This document shows, piece by piece, positions 10,804 to 22,750 of a stretch of DNA of 46,825 bases. The stretch's first letter is position 1. Each line of letters begins with the position of its first letter. The notes under the pieces are model-generated. The model made no database searches, was not told the origin of the DNA, and saw nothing but the letters and a program-made list of their open reading frames with translations. Source of the DNA: an uncultured Succiniclasticum sp. Lineage in GTDB: Bacteria; Bacillota; Negativicutes; Acidaminococcales; Acidaminococcaceae. The DNA is taken from positions 1 through 46,825 of the forward strand of contig CAJOKZ010000009.1 of assembly GCA_905235335.1 (NCBI GenBank), written 5' to 3'. Position numbers and translations under genes: made by a program.

Positions 10804-10892
10804 TGGTGCCGGGGACCGGAATCGAACCGGTACGGGTATCGCTACCCGCGGGATTTTAAGTCCCGTGCGTCTGCCAGTTCCGCCACCTCGGC
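10804..10892 (-). tRNA. tRNA-Leu (anticodon TAA)
   Basis: The 89-nt class II tRNA has a long variable arm, the anticodon loop in ACTTAAAATC and an encoded 3' CCA. The acceptor stem GCCGAGG/CCCCGGC has one A-C mismatch. It is the last gene of the five-tRNA transcript. Confidence 0.95.
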
Positions 10893-10900
10893 AGAAGTTA

Positions 10901-10974
10901 TGGAGGCGACACCCGGAATCGAACCGGGGATAAAGGTTTTGCAGACCTCTGCCTTACCGCTTGGCTATGTCGCC
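10901..10974 (-). tRNA. tRNA-Cys (anticodon GCA)
   Basis: A 74-nt cloverleaf with acceptor GGCGACA/TGTCGCC, anticodon loop in GTCTGCAAAAC, TTCGATTCC T-loop and encoded CCA. A perfect 8-bp hairpin (10986-11006) separates it from tRNA-Gly and may be a processing element. Confidence 0.95.
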
Positions 10975-11012
10975 ACACATAAAAATTAAAGGAGCAAGTC
11001 CTTTAACAGCAG

Positions 11013-11088
11013 TGGAGCGGAAAACGAGACTCGAACTCGCGACCCCAACCTTGGCAAGGTTGTGCTCTACCAACTGAGCTATTTCCGC
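11013..11088 (-). tRNA. tRNA-Gly (anticodon GCC), copy 1
   Basis: A 76-nt cloverleaf with anticodon loop in CTTGCCAAG and encoded CCA. It is identical in sequence to the tRNA-Gly at 22597-22672. Confidence 0.95.
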
Positions 11089-11091
11089 AAA

Positions 11092-11167
11092 TGGTGCCTC
11101 AGCACAGAATCGAACTGTGGACACAGGGATTTTCAGTCCCTTGCTCTACCAACTGAGCTACCGAGGC
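11092..11167 (-). tRNA. tRNA-Phe (anticodon GAA)
   Basis: A 76-nt cloverleaf with AGGGA/TCCCT anticodon stem, loop CTGAAAA, encoded CCA and acceptor GCCTCGG/CTGAGGC. It lies between the Asp and Gly tRNAs; the second cluster has no copy. Confidence 0.95.
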
Positions 11168-11171
11168 ATCA

Positions 11172-11248
11172 TGGCGACCCGGACGAGACTCGAACTCGTG
11201 ACCTCCGCCGTGACAGGGCGGCATTCTAACCAACTGAACCACCGGGCC
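11172..11248 (-). tRNA. tRNA-Asp (anticodon GTC), copy 1
   Basis: A 77-nt cloverleaf with anticodon loop in CCTGTCACG and encoded CCA. It is first in its transcript and identical to the tRNA-Asp at 22674-22750. Confidence 0.95.
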
Positions 11249-12809: not shown

Positions 12810-14072
12810 TCATTTCTTCCAAATCGAAGCTGCGTTACCATGCCCCAGCGGCCCTACCTTTAGATGCGATGCCAGTGTCTGACCGATATCGCTGAAGGTA
12901 TGGAAGGGCCGGATCTGCTGCGGCTTTACATGATTTCCGTAAAACAGTACCGGGATTTTCTCCCGGGTATGGTCCGTTCCTTTCCAGGTGGGATCACAGC
13001 CGTGATCTGCCGTAACCAGCAGTACATCGTCCGGCTTCAGCCGGGCCAGCAGCTCCGGCAGGCGGCCGTCTACATATTCCAGTCCTTCCCCATAGCCAAG
13101 CGCATCCCGGCGATGTCCGAAGGAGGAATCAAAATCCACAAAATTACTGAACACCAATGTCCGGTCCGGCGCGTCCTGCACCGCCTGCAACGTAGCGTCA
13201 AAGATCTTGTCCAGACCCGCGGCAGGATAATGTTTGCTGATGCCCCGGTGGGCAAAAATATCCGCGATCTTTCCTACGGCATAGACGCTTCCTCCTGCGG
13301 CAACCACATAATCCAGCAGGGTGTCCTCATGGGCCGGCACCGCATAATCATGACGGTGAGCCGCTACCCGCACGAACTCGCCGGCTTTTTTCCCTACAAA
13401 GGGCCGGGCGATGACGCGGGCCACCCTGTACGGCTGCACCAGCCGGTAAGCCAGCCGGCAGAGATCATACAGCCGTTCCAAGCCGAAGGTTTCTTCATGG
13501 CAGGCAATCTGCAGAACACTGTCGGCAGAAGAATAGATAATGGGTTTTCCCGTTCTCATATGTTCCTCGCCCAGTTCCTGGATAATTACCGTACCGCTTG
13601 CCAGTTTTTCCCCCAGCACGCCGGGAAGGTTCCCTTCTTTCACCAAGGTGTCCACCAGCTCCTGCGGAAAACATTTTGGCCGATCCGGAAAATAGCCCCA
13701 GTCAAAATCCACCGGCACGCCGGCAATCTCCCAGTGCCCGCTTAACGTGTCCTTACCCTTGCTTACCTCTTCCGCACAGGTATAAGCTGCTTTTACCCGG
13801 CCCCCGTCCAGCAGGTCATCCTGCAGGGGTTCCCCGGAAAGAGGATGTGCAAGGTCAGCACCGGTACTCAGCTTGTGGGCTGTCTCCAACCCCAGGGCCG
13901 CCAGATGCGGCAGGAACAGATAACGGGGGGATCCGTCCGCGTTCTTTCGGTTGGCGGCCATCCATGCCGCAATATGCCCCAGAGTATCCGATCCCTTATC
14001 TCCGAAGGCCGCCGCATCGCGGGCATAACCGATGCCGAAGGAATCCAAAAGGGTAATAATCACACGAGCCAT
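12810..14072 (-). CDS. deoB: Phosphopentomutase
   Basis: A 420-residue metalloenzyme that interconverts ribose or deoxyribose 1-phosphate and 5-phosphate, linking nucleoside breakdown to central metabolism. The N-terminal metal and phosphoserine region begins ITLLDSFGIG and continues with GDKGSDTLGH. The C-terminal metal ligands are in VTADHGCDPTWKGTDHTREK. It is slightly longer than most Firmicutes DeoB (about 390-400). The frame extends further upstream, but MARVIITLLDSFG at 14072 is the conserved start, with GGGAGG 8 nt before it. A hairpin repeat is inserted about 25 bp upstream. Uridine phosphorylase, which makes ribose 1-phosphate, lies next upstream, so the pair fits nucleoside salvage. 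Confidence 0.94.
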   Translation of the reverse strand: MARVIITLLDSFGIGYARDAAAFGDKGSDTLGHIAAWMAANRKNADGSPRYLFLPHLAALGLETAHKLSTGADLAHPLSGEPLQDDLLDGGRVKAAYTCAEEVSKGKDTLSGHWEIAGVPVDFDWGYFPDRPKCFPQELVDTLVKEGNLPGVLGEKLASGTVIIQELGEEHMRTGKPIIYSSADSVLQIACHEETFGLERLYDLCRLAYRLVQPYRVARVIARPFVGKKAGEFVRVAAHRHDYAVPAHEDTLLDYVVAAGGSVYAVGKIADIFAHRGISKHYPAAGLDKIFDATLQAVQDAPDRTLVFSNFVDFDSSFGHRRDALGYGEGLEYVDGRLPELLARLKPDDVLLVTADHGCDPTWKGTDHTREKIPVLFYGNHVKPQQIRPFHTFSDIGQTLASHLKVGPLGHGNAASIWKK

Positions 14073-14098
14073 AATGATAACCTCCCAGGACTCAAGTT

Positions 14099-14264
14099 CT
14101 ATGGAAACGCTGATTAATTCGTCTGCAAGCTGACCGGTGCTTTTTGTGACTGACTGCGTCAATGACCCTCAACGCAGCTACGGCTGCGCCTTCGGGCCAT
14201 TGTCAGTCGCAAAAAGCCCTAGCTCATCCCACAAACTCATTTAATCAGCGTCTCCCTATGAAAA
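14099..14264. repeat. MITE-like inverted repeat with flanking 9-bp direct repeats
   Basis: Terminal arms GGAAACGCTGATTAA (14103-14117) and TTAATCAGCGTCTCC (14241-14255) match at 14 of 15 positions as inverted repeats. Inside them, GCTTTTTGTGACTGAC (14139-14154) pairs with 14202-14217, leaving a core with GCAGC/GCTGC. The whole block could fold into one long hairpin. ACTCAAGTT occurs just outside both ends (14090-14098 and 14265-14273), as expected for a target-site duplication. There is no coding capacity. Interpreting it as a miniature mobile element is an inference. Confidence 0.65.
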
Positions 14265-14318
14265 ACTCAAGTTTCAGAAAACTGTCTTACTGATTGCCGG
14301 AACCCGGCAGGGATGTTC

Positions 14319-15113
14319 TTATTTATCCGCCGCAATCAACTTCTCCAACGCACGCTTTGCCACCTGCTGGAAACGCTGCTCCGCTTTTTTATACACATCC
14401 GGGGGAGCCACCGCCTCGCTGTCCGTCCGTTTAGCGATGACACCGCAGATCACGCCGGCCCGCAGGTTGTGCACGCTGCACAGGGTCAGCAGGGTCGCCG
14501 CTTCCATCTCAAAATTGGTGCATCCCAACGCCTGCCATTCCTTCAGGGATCCCTGCAGACTGCGGGGCATGTAACCGCTGAAACTGTCATACCGTTCCTG
14601 CCCGGGCCAAAAGCTGTCCGTAGTCACCGTAACGCCCAGGCGGAAAGGCACCTTCAATTCCCGGGCCGCATCCCGGAGGGCTACCGTCACATCCAGATCG
14701 GCCACAGCCGGATATTCAACAGGAGCATAGCTTTTGCTGGCGCCTTCCGTTCGGACGGCCGCCTTGCTGATAACCACATCTCCCAGGTTCAGATCCTCCT
14801 GAAGAGACCCGGTGGTGCCTACGCGGATAAAAGTCTCCACCCCAAGCCGCCCCAGTTCTTCCACAACAAAAGTGATACAGGGTCCGCCCATGCCGCTGCT
14901 CATAACCAGCACCGGTTCCCCGGCTACGCACGCCAGCCAGCTGGTAAACTCACGGTGGCTCGCAAGATAGACCGCGTCCGGATCAACGGCCTTCGCCAAT
15001 CCCTCCACACGGCCCGGATCCCCGGGAACCAACGCATACCGGGCGCCCTGCAGCATCTCCTTCGACAGCCCGACATGATACATAACCTCTCCGGGTTTCG
15101 CATAGTTTTTCAT
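14319..15113 (-). CDS. udp: Uridine phosphorylase
   Basis: A 264-residue nucleoside phosphorylase (PNP_UDP_1 family) that splits uridine with phosphate into uracil and ribose 1-phosphate. Family hallmarks are YALVPGDPGRVEGLAK near the N terminus (phosphate site), MSSGMGGPC, FIRVGTTGSLQ and NFEMEAATLLTLC near the nucleoside and ribose site. The uridine-type QERYDSFSG segment supports Udp over purine enzymes. The frame runs to 15194, but MKNYAKPGEVMYHVGL at 15113 is the likely start, with AAAGGTGG upstream. It reads toward deoB across the repeat at 14099-14264. DeoB would then convert ribose 1-phosphate to ribose 5-phosphate. Confidence 0.9.
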   Translation of the reverse strand: MKNYAKPGEVMYHVGLSKEMLQGARYALVPGDPGRVEGLAKAVDPDAVYLASHREFTSWLACVAGEPVLVMSSGMGGPCITFVVEELGRLGVETFIRVGTTGSLQEDLNLGDVVISKAAVRTEGASKSYAPVEYPAVADLDVTVALRDAARELKVPFRLGVTVTTDSFWPGQERYDSFSGYMPRSLQGSLKEWQALGCTNFEMEAATLLTLCSVHNLRAGVICGVIAKRTDSEAVAPPDVYKKAEQRFQQVAKRALEKLIAADK

Positions 15114-15222
15114 GAAACAGACCACCTTTCCGTACAACTTGTGAATCCACCGTAACATGACACAGTTTTGTTGTTTTATTATATCATAGATCACGGAGCC
15201 GGGTGTGAGAAATTAAAGAAGA

Positions 15223-22519: not shown

Positions 22520-22595
<76 letters not shown>

Positions 22596-22596
22596 G

Positions 22597-22672
22597 TGGA
22601 GCGGAAAACGAGACTCGAACTCGCGACCCCAACCTTGGCAAGGTTGTGCTCTACCAACTGAGCTATTTCCGC
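22597..22672 (-). tRNA. tRNA-Gly (anticodon GCC), copy 2
   Basis: Identical to the tRNA-Gly at 11013-11088. It is separated from tRNA-Asp by 1 nt and from tRNA-Trp by 1 nt; CCA is encoded. Confidence 0.95.
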
Positions 22673-22673
22673 G

Positions 22674-22750
22674 TGGCGACCCGGACGAGACTCGAACTCG
22701 TGACCTCCGCCGTGACAGGGCGGCATTCTAACCAACTGAACCACCGGGCC
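22674..22750 (-). tRNA. tRNA-Asp (anticodon GTC), copy 2
   Basis: Identical to the tRNA-Asp at 11172-11248, including four bases upstream of its 5' end. It is the first gene of this transcript. Confidence 0.95.

Follow-up and report, generated by a model that had tools for sequence, protein, structure and literature searches.

The folded block upstream of deoB in an uncultured Succiniclasticum sp., a rumen bacterium, is most probably a non-autonomous, MITE-like repeat that was mobilised in trans by an IS5-family transposase and inserted before deoB with a 4-bp duplication of CTAT. The best reading of the results is that the element belongs to an IS5-derived, class-wide and strand-polar MITE family. 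Succiniclasticum is a genus within Negativicutes, and the window is the whole 46,825-nucleotide stretch of DNA that was analysed. The initial annotation had called the block a miniature inverted-repeat element, and this was supported by the many copies, the absence of the element at deoB in relatives, an empty site, and an IS5-family element whose ends are the same.

Both nested inverted repeats that the initial annotation had described were present. The outer repeat (14100-14117/14241-14258) spanned 18 nt with 89% complementarity, and the inner repeat spanned 16 nt with 94% complementarity, its left arm (14139-14154) pairing with its right arm (14202-14217) in the fold. The folding energy of the 184-base block was -68.1 kcal/mol, compared with -39.7 (sd 3.5) for shuffled sequences (z -8), and none of 200 shuffles equalled it. 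Repeat search and copy extraction placed the element at 14103-14255 on the minus strand, which is the better-folding one. It is 153 bp long, the copies have 14100-14258 in common, and the terminal inverted repeats are GGAAACGCTGATTAA (14103-14117) and TTAATCAGCGTCTCC (14241-14255). For 14100-14258, the fold energy was -86.6 kcal/mol on the minus strand versus -64.2 kcal/mol on the plus strand, and the covariance model described below scored 152 bits on the minus strand and 56.8 on the plus strand. The window copy had 5 loop bases fewer than the consensus.

The gene deoB (12810-14072, minus strand, ATG with A at 14072) matched Pfam Metalloenzyme and owes its name to the initial annotation. The gene upstream of it, a member of the PNP_UDP_1 phosphorylase family, lies on the same strand at 14319-15194, and the better-folding strand of the window copy is the coding strand of both genes. 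The ribosome-binding site GGGAGG of deoB was read from the sequence at 14081-14086 on the minus strand. It lies 16 bp from the element and 3 bp from the nearer of two 9-mers ACTCAAGTT, so that the distance of about 11 bp given earlier held only roughly. A consensus scan revealed no promoter-like site in the element. A very stable hairpin is predicted in the deoB message ahead of the ribosome-binding site, and in the window copy this predicted hairpin can be lengthened by pairing between the two 9-mers. The element may affect deoB, and any such effect would be a by-product. Elsewhere in the window, two tRNA clusters were observed (10807-11248 and 22523-22750), some of whose genes were equal in score.

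A search of the block against its own genome, which had been proposed as a check, showed that the block was not single-copy. It gave at least 53 matches, of which at least about 30 besides the block itself were near full length, with 78-94% identity; the copy count is a lower bound, 40 candidates having been scored. To count as full, a copy had to begin its match no later than base 8 of the 159-base core and end it no earlier than base 150; partial copies were dropped. Full copies numbered at least 28 in the own genome, with many more elsewhere in Succiniclasticum, and nine genomes (G000-G003, G005-G008, and G013) contributed the 81 that made up the set. The unit was 153 bp long in the window copy and about 158 bp in most copies. 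The consensus, TAAGGAAACGCTGATTAATTCG...CTCATTTAATCAGCGTCTCCTTA, comprised 164 bases including the bounding TA...TA, which was found at both borders in all 28 full copies of the own genome and in 67 of the 81 overall. According to a crude ORF caller, 78 of the 81 copies lay outside called ORFs. The features of a MITE observed here were a length of ~160 bp (<500), multiple copies without a transposase of their own, terminal inverted repeats, a target-site duplication, an intergenic position, and a stable stem-loop. The GC content of 0.40-0.55 is not that of an AT-rich element; AT-richness is usual for MITEs without being defining, and YPAL is likewise not A+T-rich (PMC2229807).

Altered forms were also observed. 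Deletion forms extended down to 32-bp end-to-end palindromes, and the ~32-bp palindromes L228 (G012:C33), L229 (G007:C245), and L227 (G003:C47) consisted of two terminal repeats end to end, those in G012 and G007 sharing one locus. Copies in two species (L237, G001:C10, and L238, G013:C72) carried a similar ~50-nt apical-loop insert. L233-L236, from four genomes, held the inner hairpin without the outer terminal repeats, and L232 (G003:C36) was a copy with additional terminal repeats adjoining both ends.

IS5 elements duplicate YTAR. The 4-mers adjoining GG...CC were identical on both sides in 57 of the 81 full copies, compared with 1805 of 6480 (28%) when the left and right 4-mers of different copies were paired; 24 copies had unlike flanking 4-mers. 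The identical 4-mers were TTAA (34), TTAG (7), CTAA (6), ATAA (6), and four others once each, and 47 of the 57 were YTAR, mostly TTAA. The window copy, alone among the 81, had CTAT on both sides (14099-14102 and 14256-14259), which is YTAN and not YTAR. Outside the genus, the 4-mers were identical in 15 of 30 copies (5/11 in the distant genome G049 and 10/19 elsewhere). A 2-bp TA target duplication was replaced by the 4-bp reading after the flanking 4-mer test.

The sites of the element differed between species. The element was missing upstream of deoB in all 11 relatives that have both flanking genes; G002 and G007 allowed no judgement and are not among the 11. The gap between deoB and the phosphorylase gene was 537-653 bp in eight relatives and 127-151 bp in three. 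In G011, the sole long-gap relative tested, the gap held an AhpC-TSA (peroxiredoxin) gene that was missing from window 14075-14318. The flanks of copies from different genomes hardly overlapped at all. The initial annotation had suggested looking for empty sites with a single ACTCAAGTT. An empty site was found, in G002, G011, and G006, for another copy (G000:C70). Read by eye, this empty site was GCAA, not CTAA, in G002 and G011, and when a second empty site was sought, all matches were one-sided.

An IS5-family partner was found on a metagenomic viral contig from IMG/VR (L245, 4896-6110), where the ends GGAAACACTGATTAATTC and (reverse) GGAGCCGCTGATTAATTAA lie 1215 bp apart with CTAA on both sides. 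The first 18 bases of this element are the left end of some Succiniclasticum copies. Two overlapping frames of 247 and 120 residues between the ends matched the NCBIfam IS5 family transposase NF033581 (E 2.8e-63 and 1e-11) and DUF772/DDE_Tnp_1, with DDE_Tnp_1_6 below the cut-off. The evidence for the partner is this one locus on a metagenomic viral contig. The ends of the repeat match those of an IS5-type transposon, and we therefore regard it as a real mobile repeat rather than a one-off regulator.

A viral scan with the L245 protein returned only that contig and no other copies of the transposase. Its plasmid relatives were <60% identical among the matches listed, most of the 15 being annotated as IS5 family, and among the fetched loci the nearest transposases reached 26-27% identity. 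DDE_Tnp_1 was detected at 12 places in 5 of the 14 genus genomes, two of these places being in the own genome, and no place was enclosed by a pair of these ends; these assemblies are drafts, which lose IS copies, and this bears on the missing partner transposase. One end lay beyond a transposase frame in L215, with no second end, and none of the nine solo ends, spread over eight loci in the own genome, had a transposase among the neighbouring frames, as judged by eye. Ten pairs of ends 250-4500 bp apart were found in seven fetched loci, and the two loci that were opened (L053 and L176) had ordinary genes. An IS630-type partner was rejected, DDE_3 being found in none of the 14 genus genomes and not in G049. 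Among viral contigs, the end pattern occurred in 13 stretches, including the IS5 element (L245), a full element (L246, 74.6 bits), part of an element (L243), and short paired ends ~100 bp apart (L240-L242), and plasmids and phages gave no match to the elements searched with. Among the features of an IS5-derived MITE, a transposase between matching ends (L245) and a YTAR duplication were thus found, and a partner transposase in the same genome was not.

The repeat was not confined to one genus. Named records with the conserved left-end pattern comprised 41 stretches, from Succiniclasticum ruminis DSM 9236 and from Succiniclasticum, Acidaminococcaceae, and Selenomonadales MAGs. A DNA search of 61 genomes gave matches in 11 of the 14 genus genomes and in one distant genome, G049, which had no fewer than 40 copies, of a diverged form; the exact end pattern did not occur in 49 genomes from elsewhere in the order. 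A covariance model built from 21 Succiniclasticum and 11 G049 elements added two genomes of the order (G064 and G040). In the two-genus alignment, 29 of the 57 pairs had changed on both sides, and 95.6% of cells were paired, compared with 85.2% after shuffling and 34-45% in slid structures. No shuffle among 500 was as high on four of five measures, and 21 were on the fifth. When restricted to the genus (45 copies), the analysis showed double-sided changes in 12 of 39 pairs, with 0/500 shuffles on four measures and 20/500 on the fifth.

The covariance-model search found matches in 84 of 300 Negativicutes genomes, representing 31 of 97 genera and, by our own count, 14 families; at most nine matches per genome were shown, so these are not copy numbers, and 17 of the 84 genomes had a single match, some of them weak. 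Without the two training genera, there were 70 genomes and 29 genera, with a best E of 2.6e-28, the E-values being rough. At 59 loci of other genera, which include nine places fetched twice, the placed match scored 110.9-128.2 bits and the reverse strand at most 55.4 bits, indicating that the class match did not result from palindromy alone. Rfam gave no match at window 14060-14320 up to E 5, and at the gathering score the element had none in any of 20 class loci.

The strand orientation of the copies was assigned by homology, not by energy. The strand set in this way folded better in all 23 representatives, by a mean of 27 kcal/mol, and in 80 of the 81 Succiniclasticum copies, by 17 kcal/mol. 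Mispairs of the G.T type exceeded those of the A.C type by 147:43 in 25 members (five from the training genera), by 452:231 in the 81 copies, and by 59:33 in 11 copies of G049; the rows are related to one another, and the strand counts are therefore not independent. The 23 folds contained 57 predicted 2x2 loops, 49 of them GA/GA, and ATGA/GAA occurred in 15; RNAfold by itself favours GA/GA loops. These loops were common in other genera, sparse in three Succiniclasticum rows, and lacking in the window copy. The one-strand fold is probably kept because the element itself, not host messages, needs a single strand (ssDNA or its own RNA). A more far-reaching and less likely reading is that selection acts on a single folded strand, in which short helices connected by recurrent GA/GA loops form a rod that a partner would recognise as ssDNA or RNA. 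In that case the IS5-like ends would not suffice, and movement or persistence would also depend on the fold.

The copies have no orientation preference relative to genes. Between co-directional gene pairs, based on crude ORF calls, the better-folding strand was transcribed in 35 cases and the other strand in 41 (p 0.57). In two species (G228 and G212; L280 and L285, 1501-1669), a copy lay between rpoB and rpoC, where the TAA at the element edge is the rpoB stop and the transcribed strand is the worse-folding one. This copy was identical between the species at 166/169 positions, compared with 228/291 in the last 300 bases of rpoB, 1091/1191 in the preceding 1200, and 285/300 in a 300-base rpoC window; similarity was 98% with the orthologue and did not exceed 90% with any of the 23 other copies compared. 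At a second site common to two species, the element was identical at 167/167 positions, with near-identical adjacent bases and outer flanks of 82-84%. At the two common sites, the elements thus differ less than much of the flanking sequence does, a hint of gene flow or local selection, and some copies, such as that between rpoB and rpoC, may have been fixed as host elements.

The conserved rpoB-rpoC copy, which exceeded the flank windows compared, together with the stem covariation and the one-strand fold with recurrent GA/GA loops, is also what a class-wide structured host RNA would show, i.e., an element retained because it serves the processing or stability of operon messages. We consider this explanation unlikely for the family, given that orientation relative to genes is without preference, that the worse-folding strand is transcribed at rpoB-rpoC, that the sites differ between species, and that the copies have 4-bp duplications and transposon-like ends.

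Template switching between arms would give rise to double-sided changes without selection. Palindromy could thereby result from mutation alone, changes being copied from arm to arm with no selection on the fold; however, such a process is strand-symmetric and should leave G.T and A.C mispairs in equal numbers, without polarity, and the observed 147:43, 452:231, and 23/23 make it very improbable.

In the initial annotation, the block was read as a mobile element that had duplicated 9 bp of its target, ACTCAAGTT. The 9-mers were exact on both sides (14090-14098 and 14265-14273), but they do not border the repeated unit, which lies inside them; they sit 1 and 6 bp outside the common unit 14100-14258. 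The longest word common to the 20-base flanks was 9 in the window copy, 8 in one copy, and at most 6 in 79, and a flank word of at least 9 occurred in about 0.11% of 6480 swapped pairs, so that about 0.09 cases would be expected by chance in 81. The 9-bp duplication, seen in none of the other 80 copies and within chance, can be dismissed almost entirely, and the duplication of the window copy is CTAT, 4 bp, directly at the element ends.

Collectively, these results point to the insertion of an IS5-derived MITE. The element would have inserted between the phosphorylase gene and deoB in this Succiniclasticum species, duplicating CTAT, with an IS5-family transposase presumably acting in trans on the element ends. 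Most accounts of MITEs concern a single species or genus, and the fold is generally regarded as a passive consequence of the inverted repeats. Here, homologous copies could be aligned over 14 families of one class, and the covarying stems and polarity are unlike a passive palindrome. Selection of a MITE as a folded single strand thus becomes a testable proposition. The family also supplies a repeat annotation for Negativicutes; neither such an annotation nor a description of this repeat was found in the literature searched.

Several known repeats resemble the element. According to PMC2229807 and PMC10969869, ERIC (IRU/RU-1), an enterobacterial 127-bp repeat, is likewise short and intergenic, forms a stem-loop, occurs in more than one family, and lies inside operons; it differs in host class and length, and the likeness drawn here is one of described features. 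The Correia/NEMIS repeats of Neisseria, as portrayed in PMC3049150 and PMC2229807, have a similar size, terminal repeats, and a hairpin in messages; RNase III cleavage and promoters are reported for them, whereas the consensus scan gave no promoter-like site in our element. In the same papers (PMC3049150, PMC2229807), RUP of Streptococcus pneumoniae is a MITE with a proposed IS partner that has common ends, but it is 107 bp long, with IS630-Spn1 as partner and TA as target, and no IS630-type DDE_3 was found in the 14 genus genomes or in G049. Compared with IS5-family insertion sequences (NF033581), the element is without a transposase and forms a long hairpin, while the same terminal repeats enclose the L245 transposase and the 4-bp YTAR duplication is shared.
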